64,000 nucleotides of DNA from a bacterium (GTDB lineage Bacteria; Hydrothermota; Tepidihabitantia; SM23-42; JAOAFX01), in the NCBI GenBank assembly GCA_036382775.1, contig DASVHD010000010.1, positions 1-64,000 on the forward strand, in the 5' to 3' direction. Positions 12,301 to 63,436 of the stretch are shown in pieces. A program made the position numbers and the translations under genes. The notes below the pieces were generated by a model. The model was given only the letters and a program-made list of their open reading frames with translations, had not been told where the DNA came from and did no database searches. Each line of letters opens with the position of its first letter. Position 1 is the first letter of the stretch.

Positions 12301-14895
12301 ATGAAACTTTACAGATTGCTGGGTTTATTTTTTTCCGTTTTGATCTTTCATTCACTGGCACTGGCATCCGCAACTCCCAATTTGATCCCCGTAAAGACCC
12401 TGCACAGTCAAAATATAAAGCGTGATCTTCTTGACCAGCGTAACCCCGGCGACACGATATTTTTCGATGATTTCGAATCCGGAGCAGTTGGCTGGACATC
12501 AATGGACATGGTCATCTCGGATACTTTCTGGCACATTGATCTTTTGAATGCTTATGAGGGCAACTCCTTCTGGTGCGGCACCATGTCCTTGCCCGGCTGG
12601 ATCAATCCCAACTACGGTTACGGCGATGAGTGGGCGCAATTTCTGGAATCGCCCTCGATCGATCTGGGCAGCGTGACCGGCGATACCGCGCTGCTTACAT
12701 TCGCTCACCGCCCGTCCAATGAGAGCCCGTCAGGCGGTTATCCCGGCGATCAATGGGACGGCTGGGACTGTATCACGGTATGGATATCCACTGATGACGG
12801 TACGACCTGGACGACGATCGAACCCGATACGATCCACTGGCCGAACACCGCTTACAATATCAGGGCGGCATGGAGTTATTACTATAATTATCTAGCGGGA
12901 GAATTCGACTCGGTCCCGGGCTGGGGATGGGGTCCGAATATGTCCTGGAGCGATGTCGGGTTTGACCTGACCCCTTATATCGGCGGCACCGTCAGGATAC
13001 GGTTCACCGGTTTCTCTGATCCGGCAGAATCCGACCAAAGCGGCTCAGGCTCATACAGCGGTATGTGGAACCTGGACAACATCCGGGTATACGACAATCT
13101 TGACAATACCTATTTTTATGAAAACGGCGAGAATGGCATGGGACAATGGAGCGCTCATCCCACTAATCCACTCGGCGATTACTGGCATCTTACCACCCTC
13201 AACTCGCATAGCCCCACGTATTCATACGGATGTTTCGACTCGTTAACGGGCCAGTTCCCCCTGACCGGCACATACTGCGCTCTTGTTTCGCCGTATTTCG
13301 ATCTCTCTGACGTCTCCACGGGCGAACCATGCGAACTCGATTTTTACTTAAACTACGCTTACCTCAATCCGTATGGTGACGACGGCTACAGGATCGAACT
13401 GAGTTCTGATAAAGGCGCGACGTGGTACAACGCGACCGGTTATTATTATAACGGCAGCACGAACGGTAACTGGGTAAGTTTCGGCCAGCAATACGGTCCC
13501 GTCATTCTCGACGACCTGGTGGGCATGGACAGCATCATGTTCAGGATCGTGAGTTGGACCCACCGCGTCAGCACGCCTGGCAGCGGGCTTTTTGTTGACG
13601 ACTGCATTATCACCGGCAAGTACATCGAATTCCCGACGCCCGATCAAGTGCTCATCTATGATGACGACCTCGACGCCCAGGATGTCTACGGCTTTGGCTG
13701 GGAAAAATACTATGAGAGCTCGCTTGCCAATATCGGCTACCGGTGCACGCGGATCAGCGAAGCGGACAACGGCGTCCCCGATTCCCTGTACCTGCGGCAG
13801 AACGGCATGGTCATCTGGAACCTGGGACCCAAGGGCTGGAAATATCTCCCCGAGAACCCCATCAACGACGCCGCTCTGCAAAATTTGTTCGGTTACTTGA
13901 GGATGGGCGGCAAACTGCTCCTTGTCGGGGAGGATTTCCTTTACAACAACTTCCCCTGCTATTTTGCCGATTCGATCCTGTTGATCACCGCGGTCACGAA
14001 CGACATTGGCTGTGACAGCGCTGTCGGGATCAGCGGCGATCCCATAAGCGACGGACTGAACTGCCCGATCGATTTCAACCACCTTAACGGCAATAATTAC
14101 GGCCTGGACTATACTGACGACGTTACCACCAGTGCCACGCCGGTATTTCTGAACAACCGCTCGTCAAATCCTTCGATGCTCAGGACATCGGCCGGCGCTT
14201 ACCGCGTGGTCTTCTCTACTTTCCCGATCGAGGCGATCACGAGCTTCCAGCTTCGCGATACCCTGATGAGCCGGATCATCAACTGGATAGATCCGTACCC
14301 GCCGGCGCCTAACGTCATCGCCGCGGTACCGCATCCGCCGACCGGCATCACGGTCTCCTGGCATCCCAATCAGCCGCAGGACCTCGCAGAATATCATGTT
14401 TACGGCGCCCACGCTTACAGCGGCCCTTACAGCCTGATCGGCGTAGCGACCCCGTTGGAGACCACCTATACCGACACATTGGTCTTGCTTGATTCCACTT
14501 ATTATTACGGCGTAAAGGCCTATGACTGGTCAGATCAGGAGAGCGGCATGTCAAGGATCGTCAGCACGATATACCAGGTTGGCGTTAAAGAAGATGTGTC
14601 CCGGACGGTCAAACCGTATGTCACCAATTTCAGCGCCCGACCCAATCCGTTCCACGCCCGGCTTGACATCATGTACTCGCTTTCCGGCAAACTGAAAACA
14701 ACGCTCAAGGTCTATGACAGTGCCGGACGGATGGTGCGTGATCTGACTCCGGTCTTCAACGCTCGATCACAGAACTACTGCGTTCCGTGGTCAGGCACGG
14801 ACATGTCGGGTAGAAACCTGCCCGCCGGCGTGTATTTCATACAGCTTGACGCCGGCGATGTTAAATTGACCGAAAAAACGGTCCTGTTAAAGTAA
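12301..14895 (+). CDS. Exported multidomain protein: two jelly-roll (choice-of-anchor J/MAM-like) modules, Rossmann-like domain, FnIII and sorting tail
   Basis: 864 residues with signal peptide MKLYRLLGLFFSVLIFHSLALA. Two related beta-sandwich modules start at FFDDFESGAVGW (about residue 54) and YFYENGENGMGQW (about 275), both with the D-W-...-LESP/LVSPYFDLS pattern seen next to M6 and other secreted peptidases. Residues 450-660 form a Rossmann-like domain (VLIYDDDLD, LRMGGKLLLVGEDF, SGDPISDG) shared with the S8 and FG-GAP proteins on either side. FnIII follows (about 670-755), then the sorting tail from ARPNPFHARLDI (about 779) to KTVLLK. No protease motif is seen. Probably an adhesive or substrate-binding surface protein. 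It is 15 nt upstream of the next gene, so the two are likely co-transcribed. Confidence 0.85.
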   Translation: MKLYRLLGLFFSVLIFHSLALASATPNLIPVKTLHSQNIKRDLLDQRNPGDTIFFDDFESGAVGWTSMDMVISDTFWHIDLLNAYEGNSFWCGTMSLPGWINPNYGYGDEWAQFLESPSIDLGSVTGDTALLTFAHRPSNESPSGGYPGDQWDGWDCITVWISTDDGTTWTTIEPDTIHWPNTAYNIRAAWSYYYNYLAGEFDSVPGWGWGPNMSWSDVGFDLTPYIGGTVRIRFTGFSDPAESDQSGSGSYSGMWNLDNIRVYDNLDNTYFYENGENGMGQWSAHPTNPLGDYWHLTTLNSHSPTYSYGCFDSLTGQFPLTGTYCALVSPYFDLSDVSTGEPCELDFYLNYAYLNPYGDDGYRIELSSDKGATWYNATGYYYNGSTNGNWVSFGQQYGPVILDDLVGMDSIMFRIVSWTHRVSTPGSGLFVDDCIITGKYIEFPTPDQVLIYDDDLDAQDVYGFGWEKYYESSLANIGYRCTRISEADNGVPDSLYLRQNGMVIWNLGPKGWKYLPENPINDAALQNLFGYLRMGGKLLLVGEDFLYNNFPCYFADSILLITAVTNDIGCDSAVGISGDPISDGLNCPIDFNHLNGNNYGLDYTDDVTTSATPVFLNNRSSNPSMLRTSAGAYRVVFSTFPIEAITSFQLRDTLMSRIINWIDPYPPAPNVIAAVPHPPTGITVSWHPNQPQDLAEYHVYGAHAYSGPYSLIGVATPLETTYTDTLVLLDSTYYYGVKAYDWSDQESGMSRIVSTIYQVGVKEDVSRTVKPYVTNFSARPNPFHARLDIMYSLSGKLKTTLKVYDSAGRMVRDLTPVFNARSQNYCVPWSGTDMSGRNLPAGVYFIQLDAGDVKLTEKTVLLK

Positions 14896-14910: not shown

Positions 14911-17799
14911 ATGAAAAAATTGACTATATTGATAATCGCAGTTGCGCTTACAGAGATCGCCTATGGCAGCGCCGGCATGCTTGAACCCCTGGCGACATTG
15001 TACGGACCATCTAATTACGGCAAAACCGTGATCAGCGGTGTTGACATCAACGGCGGCGGCGCTGGCGACATTGTCGTAGGTTCTTATTTTGACGGACCGG
15101 GATACGAAGGCATGGTCTATGTTTATTTCGGCGAAGGCTTCGACACCATCCCGGACCTGCGCTTTAAAGGAGAAACCGGTTTCAGCTTTTTCGGCGAAGC
15201 CATATCCTTTTGCCCGGACCTCAACGGCAACGGCAGTTCGGAACTGGTCGTCGGCGCGAGGCTTTATAACGGCGGAGTGGGCAAAACTTACGTGTACTTT
15301 GGAGGAGCAGGGATCGACACGGCGGCTGATCTGACCCTTGTTTGCCCGACCGGCAGCCTTGAGCAGTTTGGATTCGCGGTCGCGTGCGGCAACCTCACCG
15401 GCACCGCGTCACCGGAGATAGCGATCGGCGCTCCCTGCTATTTTGACGGCTCGAACAACACTGGCCGGATCTATCTGTTCACCGACGTCAGCGCGGCTGG
15501 ACCCGCCGATACCCTGATCTTTGCGGGTGAAAGCGGGACCGGGTCGGACGAGCTCTTTGGCTCGGCGATCGCCACTGGACGGATGGACGGCAATATCGAT
15601 GCCTGGGATGATCTGCTGGTGGGCGCGCCAAGCGCCTATTATTCGGGAGGCAAAGCATACCTGTTCTACGGAAGCCCAACCATGGACATCAACCCGGATC
15701 TGATCTGGCAAGGCGGGTCAGGGGAGATACTGGGCGCCTCGGTTGCGAGCATCGCCGATATAAATCACGACGGCATGCAGGATTTCGCCATCGGTATTCC
15801 GCAGCGCAATAGCGGCCGCGGTGCATGCTATATCGTTCTCGGCAAAACGTCGCAGGATACAACGCCGGATTATATCCTGAACGGGGATCTGGACGGCGGC
15901 AATTTTAGTACCAGTATCAGCGCGGTCGGCGACGTTAATAACGATGGGTATTCAGATCTGGCGGTCGGCGCAAAAAATTACAACAGCGGCGTCGGCAGAA
16001 TATTCCTGTACGCGACCGAATTTGATACTGTCTATGAAGCATACGCGGACGCGCCCGATCCGAACAACAGTTTCGGCGTTTCTATTGCCGGCTGCGGGGA
16101 CTTGAATGGCGATGGTTTCGACGATATCATTGTCGGTTCGGATGGCAGCACCGGGCGAGCTTATATCTATCGGGGCCGCGACGAATTCGTGCCGCCGGTG
16201 ATCGACAGCGTCACCGCTTTAAGCGACACGGGATATTACGGACCGTTCGTAGTTTCGGCATACATTTACGACTCGACGGGCATCTCGAGAGATTCGCTTT
16301 ACTGTAATGTCAACGGCGCTGGTTATGTCCCCATGGCGCATGACAGCGTAAACGGCCAAACCTTCTTCTTCCACATCCCGGAACAGCCGCCGCCGGCTTA
16401 CGTGTCAACAACGGTCGAATGGTATCTCATGGCCCGGGACAACAGTTATCCCAGCATCAATCTCACGTGCTCGCCTCCCCGGGGCGCAGCATCGCCATAT
16501 TCGTTCCAAATATTCGACCGGGCCGGGCCGGTGATCACCAATACGACCGTCTGGGCTGATACCAGCTTCCTCGGACCATACCAGATCTACTGCAACGTGA
16601 CCGACGCTTCCGGTATCAGCCTCGTGAAGCTGTGTTTTTGGGAATCTCCAGGCCAGCAGCACATCCTGCCGATGTATCCGACCGGCACGCCCAGCCAGTA
16701 CTATGCGTCGATACCGGTGCAGAACTACGGCCGGATCATCGCCTACCGGGTTGAAGCCCAGGACAGTTTTGCCATGCCGAACATGGGTTATGACCCGGAA
16801 GATTACCCGACCGGCTATGCATTCATCATCGGACCGGTCAATCCCGCGTTACTGCTGGTTGACAACGATAACGGCGACACGATGGAGGTCTATTATAAAA
16901 AAGCGCTCGACTCCCTGCAGGTCAGTTATTTCACATGGCCGGATTCCTGGGGTTCGCCGCGGAATCTTATGGGCGACAATTTTCCCGTCGTAGTGTGGTT
17001 CACCGCCCAAAAAACCTCTAATATTCTCATTGCGAAAGACCAGGACAGTCTCGCCGCCTTTTTCACGCGCGGCGGGAAGCTTTTCATATCCAGCCAGAAC
17101 CTTGGCGAAGATATCGGCGCTACTTCTTTCTACCAGAACTACCTGCATGCCCAGTTCGATTCGGGCATGATCACCGAGATGCGAGCCATCACTGTGCCGG
17201 GCGATTCGGTCGGCGATATCTATAAAGATACGATCTCGATCGGCGGGATCGGCGGCGCCGACAACGCCGATTCTAAGGACCGGATCTTCCCCCTTGCCGG
17301 CGCCGATTCGGTGTACCGCTACCGGCAGATAGGCGGCAGCGCAGCCATCAAGTACAAGGACGCGGCCACTGGTTACCGGGTCGTTTATTTCGCTTTCCCA
17401 TGGGAGGCGATCGACGGTACGCCGGTATTGTTCGCGCAGCGGGGACCCGTAATGGTCAGTGTGCTCAGATGGCTCGGCGTTATCCCCGGCGTTGCGGAAA
17501 ATAACCCGGGTGTTCCCGGACCGGTGTTTGCATTGAACCAGATCAAACCCAATCCGTTCAGTATCCGGACCCGGATCCAATATTCAACGCCTGCCGAAGA
17601 GCACGTTTTCCTTAAGATCTATGACCTGAGCGGCCGGCTGGTAAGGGACCTCTACTCAGGCAAGGTCAAACCAGGAACATACTCCTGCACCTGGGAAGGA
17701 AACGACAATGCTGACCGGCTGGTACCCAGTGGTGTGTACTTCATCATCTATGAGAATTCGCAGGCCCGGAAAAGCCAGAAGATCGTGCTGACGCATTAG
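14911..17799 (+). CDS. Exported FG-GAP/integrin-alpha-like beta-propeller protein with sorting tail
   Basis: 962 residues. Signal peptide MKKLTILIIAVALTEIAYGS. Residues about 30-430 are repeated FG-GAP blades with calcium-loop motifs: DINGGGAGDIVVGS, DLNGNGSSELVVGAR, DINHDGMQDFAIGIP, DVNNDGYSDLAVGAK and DLNGDGFDDIIVGS. Two Ig-like modules follow. A Rossmann-like domain lies at about 645-850 (LLLVDNDNGDTMEVYY, FFTRGGKLFISSQNLGED, VPGDSVGD). The sorting tail runs from KPNPFSIRTRIQYS (about 878) to KIVLTH. GGGAGG precedes the ATG, 15 nt after the previous stop. The propeller probably binds protein or polysaccharide; no enzyme motif is seen. Confidence 0.87.
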   Translation: MKKLTILIIAVALTEIAYGSAGMLEPLATLYGPSNYGKTVISGVDINGGGAGDIVVGSYFDGPGYEGMVYVYFGEGFDTIPDLRFKGETGFSFFGEAISFCPDLNGNGSSELVVGARLYNGGVGKTYVYFGGAGIDTAADLTLVCPTGSLEQFGFAVACGNLTGTASPEIAIGAPCYFDGSNNTGRIYLFTDVSAAGPADTLIFAGESGTGSDELFGSAIATGRMDGNIDAWDDLLVGAPSAYYSGGKAYLFYGSPTMDINPDLIWQGGSGEILGASVASIADINHDGMQDFAIGIPQRNSGRGACYIVLGKTSQDTTPDYILNGDLDGGNFSTSISAVGDVNNDGYSDLAVGAKNYNSGVGRIFLYATEFDTVYEAYADAPDPNNSFGVSIAGCGDLNGDGFDDIIVGSDGSTGRAYIYRGRDEFVPPVIDSVTALSDTGYYGPFVVSAYIYDSTGISRDSLYCNVNGAGYVPMAHDSVNGQTFFFHIPEQPPPAYVSTTVEWYLMARDNSYPSINLTCSPPRGAASPYSFQIFDRAGPVITNTTVWADTSFLGPYQIYCNVTDASGISLVKLCFWESPGQQHILPMYPTGTPSQYYASIPVQNYGRIIAYRVEAQDSFAMPNMGYDPEDYPTGYAFIIGPVNPALLLVDNDNGDTMEVYYKKALDSLQVSYFTWPDSWGSPRNLMGDNFPVVVWFTAQKTSNILIAKDQDSLAAFFTRGGKLFISSQNLGEDIGATSFYQNYLHAQFDSGMITEMRAITVPGDSVGDIYKDTISIGGIGGADNADSKDRIFPLAGADSVYRYRQIGGSAAIKYKDAATGYRVVYFAFPWEAIDGTPVLFAQRGPVMVSVLRWLGVIPGVAENNPGVPGPVFALNQIKPNPFSIRTRIQYSTPAEEHVFLKIYDLSGRLVRDLYSGKVKPGTYSCTWEGNDNADRLVPSGVYFIIYENSQARKSQKIVLTH

Positions 17800-36789: not shown

Positions 36790-36821
36790 GCAAATTTTTT
36801 CTTATCTTATTTTTTATAGTG

Positions 36822-36943
36822 TGCCTCCTCCCCATTGATGGGGGAGGATAAAGGTGGGGGTGAATATTATAGCTTAGTGTAGTTTTTTTCACGATATTTC
36901 ACCCTCCCCTTTGTCCCCTCCCATCCAGGGAGGGGGGATAATA
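36822..36943. repeat. Pair of inverted CTCCCC-type repeat elements
   Basis: CCTCCTCCCC-ATTGAT-GGGGGAGG followed by ATAAAGGTGGGGGTGAATA (36824-36865) is mirrored by TATTTCACCCTCCCCTTTG and CCCCTCCC-ATCCA-GGGAGGGG (36895-36937). The two units are inverted copies of the same element, related to those at 44225, 50212 and 63353. Confidence 0.75.
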
Positions 36944-36978
36944 ATGAATTAGCGTTTGAAAATATTGGGAACTAAATC

Positions 36979-41824: not shown

Positions 41825-44479
41825 ATGAAAACTTTGTCATTGTTTTTTGCTTTGACTCTAATTTTAGGCTTAAGTATTGGATCAAGTGAACCGGTCAACA
41901 CTGGCGGTGATCCAGACATCATCACGGTCCGGGTTAAACCGGGACAGACTGTTAACGACTTTATCAACAATCCCTCATTCCAGTTGCAGTACTCCCAGAC
42001 CGATGTCGACCCGGGCATCGCGCCCGAGGGCGATTACATGGGCCAGGCGTGCTTTACCCGCGACGGATCAAGGGTCCTTTTGACGAACCGTGGGACTGAC
42101 AACATAACGGTCTTCAACTGGTCGACCATGGCCGTCATCACGAACATCCCCGTCGGGGACTATCCCTGGGGCATCGCGGTCACGGATTCTTACGCGGTAG
42201 TGGCCTGCGGCTTCGGCGACGAGGTTTACGTGATTAAGCTGTCTGACTACTCGATCGCCCATATCTTCACCCTGCCGGCCGGCCAGCAGCCTTGGGTCGT
42301 GCGCGTGAATCCTGCCGGCACCAGGGCGTTCGTCGCCTGTGACATCAGCAACACCTGCGAGGTATTCAACCTCCAGACCATGAACCATGACCTGACCATC
42401 AGCAATTTCCCGATCGCCCTGATGACGTATTCCTGGAACTCGGAGAACGGCCGCAACGCGTTCACGTTCACCAATTTCGAAGTCACGCCTGACGGCAATT
42501 ACCTCATTTCCAGCGGCTACCAGGACAGTCTTTATTTTATCAACGCTACCACGGGCAGCGTCGATTACGTGGTCCCCAATATCCTGGATATCGCCGCGGT
42601 CGGGATCTCGCTCGACGGTTCAAAGACTATTGTATTGAGCAATTTAAATCCAGGTGTTCTGTACCAGATCGACAATACCACGCACGCGGTCACCGGCACG
42701 GTTACCCTTGCCGGATACCAGTTCATGACCTACGAGGTCGGAGTCAACGCCACCGGCACCAAAGCGTACGTCGGCGTGAGCAACAACCGCAGCGCGATCG
42801 CGCGTTTCGCGACGAGCGATTTCGTGACCTTCACCCAGACCTATACCGCGTTCTGGATCGGCACTTCGCCCAACCGCGCCTACGCGATCAGCGGCCAGTA
42901 CAATTTTTCCGTAGTTGATTTTGCCGGCGAGACCGTGGTCGGTCAGTCGATCGGCAATTCCCAGAGCTGCGGCGCGGTTTCGCCCTCGGGCAACCGGGTC
43001 GTCGGGTTCGATCCGCACCGTCATGAGGGTCTTTACTTTTATGATTACACGACACCCAGCGCGCCTTCATACCGCGGCACCACGAACGCGGGTTTGAACC
43101 CGGAAGGCGACTGCCCGCATCGGGTCGCGATCACCCCCAACGGGACAAAGGCCGTCGTCGCCGAGGTGTTGTCGGACAACGCGACGATAGTCAACATGAG
43201 CACTTACAATGTCGAAGCCACCTTAAATATCGGCGACCGGCCCCAGGATGTAGCCATCACTTCGGATTCCCGCTGGGCAGTTGTGGCCAGCATAAATTCC
43301 AATCTGGCTGCGGTCATCGACCTCCAGACCAACACGGTCGTGGCCAGCGTGCCGACCGGGAGTGGATCCTCGGTCGTCTGTATCGCTCCCGACGATTCCT
43401 TCGCCTACGTCGGCAACATCGGAGCAAACACTATCTCGGTGATCAGGCTAAGCGGAGCGACAAGCACCGAGGTCGCCGAGATACCCTGCGGTGAGACCGG
43501 CATAGTCTGGGCATGCTATGGCGTGTGCAGCGGCATTAATATCGATCCTACGGGTTCATACGTCCTGGTCGCGGTCTCTTTCGACGACCAGGTAAAGGTC
43601 ATCAGCACGGCGACCAACACGGTGGTGGCAACGATCACGGTCGGCGACTTTCCGATCGAGGTCGATTTTGACAGCACCGGACAGTACGCGACCGTTACCA
43701 ACGCCTTCTCGGACAATTACTCGATCATATATGTCAACGGTTCGTCTTCATCTTTAGTGGGTACCTTTACGGCCAGTGATTATCCGCTCCGGCTTGATTA
43801 CAACAAGACCGCGGATGAAATGGGCGTTGGACATTACGGCAGCAAGACCATCTCCAATATCGACCCTCGCACGGGCGCCCTGCACAGCACTGATTCATAT
43901 ACCAGTTATGGGAACCTGTACCAGGTTATATTCGACGAGAACGGGGATCCGATCGTGCTCACGGGCCCGGTCGGAAACCTGCCCGGTCATATTCACCGGG
44001 GGACCGATATAATCCAGCTGCCCGCGTCGCCTGCGTATTTTGACTACTGCCCCACGGTCCAGAAAGCAGCAATCGCCATGCCCGGACCGGATATCTTGAC
44101 GGTCATTGACTGGGGCGGGACCGGAGTGGAACAGGTGGTGAATATACCGCTGTCGCAAAAATCTTTCTCACTTATGGTTGCACCGAATCCGTTCAACCAA
44201 CGGACTACAATCAAATTCCAAATCCACCCTCACCCTTGCCCTCCCCCCTCGAGGGGGAGGATAAAGGAGAGGGGGATCAAATCCCAAAATTCAATGAAGA
44301 TCTACGACACATCCGGAAAGCTGGTGAGATCATTTAACAATTTAACCATTCAACCATTTAACCTAGTCACTTGGGACGGTTTGGATGCCGATGGTTCTCT
44401 TGCCCAAGCCGGTATCTACTTCGTGGTCGCGCAAGCCGGCGCTCATACGGCAGTGCAAAAAATCACCCTGGTGAGGTAA
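41825..44479 (+). CDS. Exported YncE-like beta-propeller protein with sorting tail; repeat element inserted in frame
   Basis: 884 residues with signal peptide MKTLSLFFALTLILGLSIGS. Residues about 60-780 are repeated YVTN/YncE blades (NITVFNWSTMAVITNIPVGDYPW, VIDLQTNTVVASVPTGSG, VISTATNTVVATITVGDFP), a lactonase-like propeller probably for binding or adhesion. The sorting tail begins SLMVAPNPFNQRTTIKF and ends TAVQKITLVR. Residues about 801-817 (HPHPCPPPSRGRIKERG) are encoded by a dispersed CCCCCTCGAGGGGG repeat inserted without breaking the frame. A second low-complexity stretch (NNLTIQPFNLV) comes from an ATTYAACC-type simple repeat. Function of the propeller is not known. Confidence 0.85.
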   Translation: MKTLSLFFALTLILGLSIGSSEPVNTGGDPDIITVRVKPGQTVNDFINNPSFQLQYSQTDVDPGIAPEGDYMGQACFTRDGSRVLLTNRGTDNITVFNWSTMAVITNIPVGDYPWGIAVTDSYAVVACGFGDEVYVIKLSDYSIAHIFTLPAGQQPWVVRVNPAGTRAFVACDISNTCEVFNLQTMNHDLTISNFPIALMTYSWNSENGRNAFTFTNFEVTPDGNYLISSGYQDSLYFINATTGSVDYVVPNILDIAAVGISLDGSKTIVLSNLNPGVLYQIDNTTHAVTGTVTLAGYQFMTYEVGVNATGTKAYVGVSNNRSAIARFATSDFVTFTQTYTAFWIGTSPNRAYAISGQYNFSVVDFAGETVVGQSIGNSQSCGAVSPSGNRVVGFDPHRHEGLYFYDYTTPSAPSYRGTTNAGLNPEGDCPHRVAITPNGTKAVVAEVLSDNATIVNMSTYNVEATLNIGDRPQDVAITSDSRWAVVASINSNLAAVIDLQTNTVVASVPTGSGSSVVCIAPDDSFAYVGNIGANTISVIRLSGATSTEVAEIPCGETGIVWACYGVCSGINIDPTGSYVLVAVSFDDQVKVISTATNTVVATITVGDFPIEVDFDSTGQYATVTNAFSDNYSIIYVNGSSSSLVGTFTASDYPLRLDYNKTADEMGVGHYGSKTISNIDPRTGALHSTDSYTSYGNLYQVIFDENGDPIVLTGPVGNLPGHIHRGTDIIQLPASPAYFDYCPTVQKAAIAMPGPDILTVIDWGGTGVEQVVNIPLSQKSFSLMVAPNPFNQRTTIKFQIHPHPCPPPSRGRIKERGIKSQNSMKIYDTSGKLVRSFNNLTIQPFNLVTWDGLDADGSLAQAGIYFVVAQAGAHTAVQKITLVR
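44225..44275. repeat. CCCCCTCGAGGGGG palindromic element inside a coding sequence
   Basis: CACCCTCACCCTTGCC, then CTCCCCCCTCGAGGGGGAG, then GATAAAGGAGAGGGGG: the same layout as the intergenic copies at 50212-50262 and 63353-63411. It replaces or interrupts the normal first loop of the sorting domain yet keeps the reading frame open. Confidence 0.85.
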
Positions 44480-47774: not shown

Positions 47775-48170
47775 TATCATTCTCCTTTTAGATTAGAATC
47801 ATTTGCATAATTTCATTTAACTATTAAAATCAAATTTTAGTCACAATATCCGTGGCATATTATATTGAATATAAGGCTTTTTTCAAGACCTTTAGCTAAC
47901 CGAATATTGATTAGTGGTTTCAGACATTGCTGGCAAATCATTCTATCATATGTCATTCCGTGTTTAACACGGAATCCATTTATCCTGTAGAGCATTGTTC
48001 GAGAGGTACCAGGATGTAGTTGTATACTGATGTTTCAACACTTCAACAATTGAACAATTGTTCAACAATTTAATTATCAAAGCATCCCTCGATGCACCAT
48101 GCTTTCAATAGAAACAAAAACCGCTTTGAATATCGCCAATATTTATGTTACTGGCTTTTGCAGTTGCACC
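47775..48170. other. Intergenic region with two small repeat/palindrome elements
   Basis: This roughly 400-nt gap has no convincing gene. It holds a 21-nt palindrome at 47955-47975 (arms ATTCCGTGTT / AACACGGAAT), in the style of dispersed 'GTCATTCCGTG' elements. At about 48031-48075 lies an AT-rich low-complexity stretch of CAACAATT/GAACAATTG words, self-complementary around AACAATTGTT. The rest shows nothing recognisable. Confidence 0.55.
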
Positions 48171-50180: not shown

Positions 50181-50211
50181 AATCACGCTTCCACGTTCCT
50201 TCAGTCATTGC

Positions 50212-50262
50212 CCCCCCACCCTAACCCTCCCCCTCGAGGGGGGAGGAAAAAGGAGGGGGTGT
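50212..50262. repeat. CCCCCTCGAGGGGG palindromic element (intergenic)
   Basis: CCCCCCCACCCTAACCC, then TCCCCCTCGAGGGGGGA, then GGAAAAAGGAGGGGGTG. It lies between the phosphohexomutase stop and the folK promoter. Same family as 44225-44275. Confidence 0.85.
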
Positions 50263-50331
50263 ATTATCACTGGATATGCTGAAAAGAGTGTGACGACCGT
50301 TAGAAAGAACCCGGTTTATTTCCAACTTGAC

Positions 50332-63340: not shown

Positions 63341-63352
63341 CCGACTCAAAAT

Positions 63353-63411
63353 TCACCCCCTCCTTTTTCCTCCCCCCTCGAGGGGGAGGGTAAGGGTGGG
63401 GGGAGGGGGTA
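63353..63411. repeat. CCCCCTCGAGGGGG palindromic element between ndk and the nuclease gene
   Basis: CACCCCCTCCTTTTTCC, then TCCCCCCTCGAGGGGGAGGG, then TAAGGGTGGGGGGAGGGGG. It sits exactly between two divergent promoters. Same family as 44225 and 50212. Confidence 0.85.
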
Positions 63412-63436
63412 GCCATTACAACATTCAGAAAATCAT

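Follow-up and report, generated by a model that had tools for sequence, protein, structure and literature searches.

Palindromic repeats that lie in frame within bacterial genes are commonly regarded as scattered accidents. The closest described systems are the Rickettsia palindromic elements (RPEs), which are dispersed palindromes found in frame in protein genes, where the extra peptide is tolerated (PMC10969869; PMC3733652). REPs within open reading frames (ORFs) are likewise on record for O. terrae, R. conorii and others (Di Nocera 2013, PMC3733652), and MITEs and other small mobile repeats (ERIC, RU and Correia) are non-autonomous and intergenic, occurring at times in ORFs (PMC10969869, PMC2229807, PMC2759123).

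The 51-nt element considered here (family F1) resembles RPEs, as far as descriptions can be likened, in being a dispersed palindrome that sits in frame in coding genes and is absent from their orthologues. It differs from them in length (51 nt versus about 150 nt), in the lack of a conserved peptide (identical DNA is read in two frames, whereas the peptide encoded by RPEs is conserved) and in the concentration of its coding copies in a single loop of a single family of paralogous domains, RPEs being found in unrelated genes. Unlike GTAG and CGTC REPs, F1 carries neither tag at its ends in an alignment of its copies. Set against MITEs, it has revealed neither the terminal inverted repeats of an insertion sequence nor a target duplication, which the AT-rich heptads flanking it would mask. 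A second family in the same genome, F2, has the GTAG tag, hairpin and inverted-dimer anatomy of GTAG REPs, its two hairpins standing head to head as in a REPIN; a RAYT linkage was found for F2 only, and only in a sister genus, and F1 is linked to none. The section on intragenic REPs in PMC3733652 features varied genes, many of them for DNA repair, and no secretion tails, whereas F1 and F2 here occupy such tails. In the library that we searched for sorting domains with palindromic repeats, no paper describes such a concentration in the loops of sorting domains. By these comparisons, the RPE-like mode appears to be known and the concentration in one loop to be the unusual part.

An in-frame palindrome in a sorting domain

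The stretch of DNA analysed (hereafter the window; 64,000 nt) belongs to a genome of 3.06 Mb in 51 contigs (G000) and encodes a YncE-like protein (Table 1) whose C-terminal sorting domain is assigned to the Por_Secre_tail or T9SS type A class by Pfam and NCBIfam. With the window's own seven tails as input, AlphaFold2 predicts a beta-sandwich (mean pLDDT of 78), in which the insert is a low-confidence loop (pLDDT of about 51) between strands 17-23 and 46-51 and the remainder mostly scores 75-94. The best PDB matches of the modelled tail are PorU, PorZ and the C-terminal domain of mirolase, with that of RgpB lower in the list. Sequence model and predicted fold both identify the host domain as a T9SS C-terminal domain, and a T9SS is likely in this bacterium because SprA was found in its genome.

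Table 1 Positions in the window of the YncE-like gene, its insert and related features
Feature	Position	Strand	Basis or remark
YncE/lactonase-like beta-propeller protein with C-terminal sorting domain, 884 aa	41825..44479	+	Pfam Lactonase, YNCE, FlgD_ig, Por_Secre_tail; NCBIfam TIGR04183
T9SS-type C-terminal sorting domain (tail) of the YncE-like protein	44186..44476	+	AlphaFold2 beta-sandwich and PDB matches
Strand 1 coding sequence ACAATCAAATTCCAAATC (TIKFQI), similar to AAATTCC, the AT heptad, and suggested as the landing site	44207..44224	+	
Palindromic F1 element of 51 nt, lying in frame in loop 1 and encoding HPHPCPPPSRGRIKERG	44225..44275	+	hairpin -35.8 kcal/mol, z -3.2
Sorting tail without insert, for comparison	14644..14892	+	
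Sorting tail without insert, for comparison	17551..17796	+	
Low-scoring, divergent half of F1, the first member of an inverted pair	36807..36870	+	covariance model, 20.8 bits, E 0.06
Second member of that inverted pair, its relatedness judged by eye alone	36895..36945	-	absent from the covariance model list
Intergenic F1 copy	50203..50269	+	covariance model
Intergenic F1 copy	63346..63412	-	covariance model

An earlier note on this DNA had claimed that the palindrome adds 17 residues in frame to loop 1, that it recurs between genes at two sites and that both flanks of the domain still match the window's other six tails, and each of these points holds. Specifically, the insert is a quasi-palindrome (CAC...GGGGG) of exactly 17 codons in the frame of the ATG at 41825; it brings loop 1 to 24 residues, compared with a typical 8 or 9 among 110 tails measured, and the alignment confirms the match of both flanks. 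The palindrome is confirmed as a genuine dispersed repeat: exact matches to CCCCCTCGAGGGGG lie at 44244, 50229 and 63373, where shuffles allowing two mismatches lead one to expect 0.23, and a longer element is common to all three sites (96% reverse-complementarity between 50212-50265 and 63350-63403; 80% complementarity between 44221-44275 and 50211-50265). The inverted pair that had been reported at 36822-36943 stands in part, the covariance model recognizing its first half as a distant relative and not listing its second. Rfam matches in the window between 44100 and 50400 all scored below the gathering score, and the candidate assignment of F1 to a known Rfam RNA family was rejected on these sub-threshold matches. 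Within the same interval, a separate AT-rich palindrome at 48029-48086 is built of CAACAATT-type repeats.

Across the genome, the F1 core CCCCTCGAGGGG has 38 exact sites and its reversed control none, and the covariance model places F1 at no fewer than 80 positions (88 distinct ones listed, 150 of 855 candidates having been scored); many related genomes from the same order carry F1 too, in variable numbers. Among 84 F1 places with sequence, drawn from a biased sample of 0.63 Mb in stretches chosen around elements and tails, 70 have no spanning ORF, eight lie in tails, one in folC and five under short or antisense ORFs called spurious by eye; a ninth, degenerate tail copy, on contig C22, falls outside this tally. 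Copies also occur within a tandem array of units of about 150 nt at contig ends (G000:C20:40752-41118 and C41:51), which is probably an assembly break in the repeat. At two other loci (L012:1501 and L024:3001), F1 and heptad repeats either immediately precede the apparent N-terminus of an exported protein or fall within it, the start codon there being uncertain.

The insert is derived rather than ancestral, because the YncE-like orthologues and the folC genes of 12 relatives lack F1. Orthologues with 60% (L176), 65% (L180) and 66% (G022 L292) identity, the last two possibly from one organism, have an ordinary loop 1 without the palindrome. The second coding copy is in frame in folC (L294; G000:C36:74608-75996), F1 being found in none of the folC genes of those 12 relatives; folC of the sister genome G001 has another insert in the same loop. 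The remaining accepted coding insertion outside tails is an in-frame F2 REPIN in queA (tRNA ribosyltransferase-isomerase; L306:773-1942, minus strand), which makes the protein about 53 residues longer at that point than T. maritima QueA (PDB 1vky). Dispersal and empty sites support the earlier suggestion that a palindromic element can be tolerated as protein-coding sequence in the manner of RPEs. They likewise favour the view of a mobile or expanding element, with movement read from empty sites and copy identity rather than observed.

Repeat families in the loops of sorting tails

The insert is not isolated, a point that the earlier note had missed: this loop is occupied by several repeat families, and in no fewer than 19 tails. 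The genome encodes about 130 sorting tails, and among the 110 with both anchors measured, 19 have palindromes in frame in loop 1 (nine F1, six F2, two F3 and the single hairpins F4 and F5, one tail each, which have no second copy in the 0.63 Mb and are not counted as dispersed families). All F1 copies in tails lie in loop 1, are of one subtype and one orientation, and are read in either of two frames, as HPHPFPPPSRGRIKEGG or as SPPPFPSPLEGEDKGGG. The encoded peptide itself is not the conserved part, because copies on contigs C23 and C5 with identical 51-nt DNA are read in different frames, in dissimilar tails; the peptide may well be functionless. Loop 2 is occupied by F3 in eight tails, including three near-copies of one tail; it reads LSAKQFGGIQPFNQ or a variant of this, and both sides of the hairpin show changes. 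Examples at G000:C49:5412 (L170) and G000:C50:13082 contain the in-frame hairpin TCCGCCAAACAGTTTGGCGGA, encoding LSAKQFGGIQPFN. In the sister genus, eight tails have, in the same loop as F2, an F2-like REP (at most three mismatches) whose end is read as VGQGFSLAIYD or a variant; those tails were chosen mostly for an interrupted look, such that a rate is not derivable.

The concentration in loop 1 is also seen in dispersed 14-mers, defined as those found in at least two other places outside tails. Within the same biased 0.63 Mb, they cover 10.8% of the bases of loop 1, 0.4% of strand 1, 1.8% of strand 2, 1.7% of loop 2, 0.6% of the rest of the tail, 0.6-1.2% of gene bodies and 4.2% of downstream DNA. 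With an assumed noncoding fraction of 10-15%, 0.6-0.9 F1 copies are expected in all loops and nine are seen (P < 1e-6); with six independent F1 events and the same assumed fraction, the enrichment has P < 4e-4.

Strand 1 of the F1-bearing tails is usually encoded by AAATTCCAAATT (KFQI), an AT-rich heptad. In heptad statistics from the same biased stretches, strand 1 reads [KR][FY]Q[IST] in 17 tails, 11 of which have F1, F3, F4 or F5, versus 2 of the 93 others (p 2e-9), and heptad words adjoin 19 of 38 F1 cores versus 3.9% of random positions. F2 insertions depart from this strand 1 rule. The adjacency suggests that the heptad may be the F1 target; alternatively, the heptad may have come with F1 as one piece of a composite insert instead of being a target that was there beforehand.

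Origin and meaning of the loop inserts

Among F1-bearing tails, identity is 92% for the element, 71% for strand 1, 64% from strand 2 to the end and 58% upstream, and the element is more identical than the downstream tail in 28 of 28 pairs; F2 behaves alike (88% versus 64-66%, 15 of 15 pairs). Because element identity exceeds that of the host tails, both inserts postdate the divergence of the tails. This makes it very improbable that a single ancestral insertion in one tail was followed by copying of the complete tail to further genes, an explanation that would fit the common subtype and orientation of the F1 tail copies and the existence of whole-tail near-copies (98%) on C15, C17 and C23. The identical C23 and C5 elements in other frames and dissimilar tails speak against it as well, the closest tails by flank are mostly without the insert, and in a weakly supported tail tree built without the loop the insert labels are scattered, needing eight changes for nine rows. 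Chance or low-complexity similarity, which the C-rich and G-rich runs might evoke as simple sequence, is refuted by the exact core sites against an empty reversed control and by the strong E-values of the structure-aware covariance model.

We consider it probable that F1, one of several dispersed palindromic families in this genome (most likely of candidate division WOR-3), is a short repeat that moves, or did so until recently, and that it has been taken over as coding DNA in a loop that is permissive and probably preferred. Elements would insert beside the AT-rich heptad coding strand 1 (KFQI), their landing place being loop 1, which joins beta-strands 1 and 2 at the very C-terminal end of some 130 proteins that are presumably secreted; surviving copies would be those that keep the frame and are free of stops, the beta-sandwich accepting the longer loop. 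The most serious competitor, possible although clearly less probable, is short-tract gene conversion or heptad-mediated recombination among paralogous tails and intergenic composites after one or a few insertions. It would account for the uniform subtype and orientation, for right junctions common to subsets (C10, C5 and C32; C27 and C50), for the 91% identity of C27 and C50 over 107 nt that include the junction, for heptads on both sides of F1 and for an intergenic heptad-F1-heptad composite of the coding subtype at L020. However, identical DNA in two reading frames needs different flanks, left and right junctions vary between subsets, and several unrelated families share the loop. Maintenance of the repeats for a DNA or RNA function, such as a 3'-proximal hairpin stabilizing or terminating mRNA in a merely tolerant loop, is unlikely in our estimation: the F1 hairpin is strong, several copies lie directly 3' of tails (C23:18682 and C23:16612) and REPs are described as preferring gene 3' ends (PMC3733652), but loop 1 lacks a palindrome in the majority of the 110 tails.

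Several unrelated families in one loop of a big paralogous family amount to a replicated natural experiment, in which insertion preference is separable from tolerance and the effect of REPs on secretion becomes testable. The tails also illustrate a route from noncoding repeats to protein sequence, and call for caution wherever a peptide like PPPSRGRIKEGG or VGQGFSLA is annotated, since it can be a translated repeat. A bolder proposal, to which we give little credence, is that the loop is an evolved landing pad, its heptad-written strand 1 attracting several families, which keep altering the secretion tags that dozens of surface proteins carry, with REP pieces becoming a strand (VGQGFSLAIYD in the sister genus); if true, it would constitute a repeat-driven way to vary secretion signals.

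Candidate mobilizing enzymes

The earlier note had pointed to a REP-associated tyrosine transposase as a possible partner of the palindrome. Nine Y1_Tnp (Y1/RAYT-type) matches were indeed found in the genome, but at the nine loci scanned the Y1 genes have no F1 core closer than about 1.5 kb, and the F1-RAYT link was rejected. F2 REPs were not seen beside these own-genome loci either. Judged by their coordinates, Y1_Tnp genes of the sister genus are bordered by F2 REPs (G002:C17 and G003:C98), and because of this arrangement F2 is best read, by its anatomy, as a REP/RAYT system, with a Y1/RAYT-type nuclease as its likely enzyme. At L032:1159-2070, a RAYT-like ORF has a start and an end that consist of repeated EHLRPSKDGRYKPPVASGFIRT, as if flanking repeats were translated.
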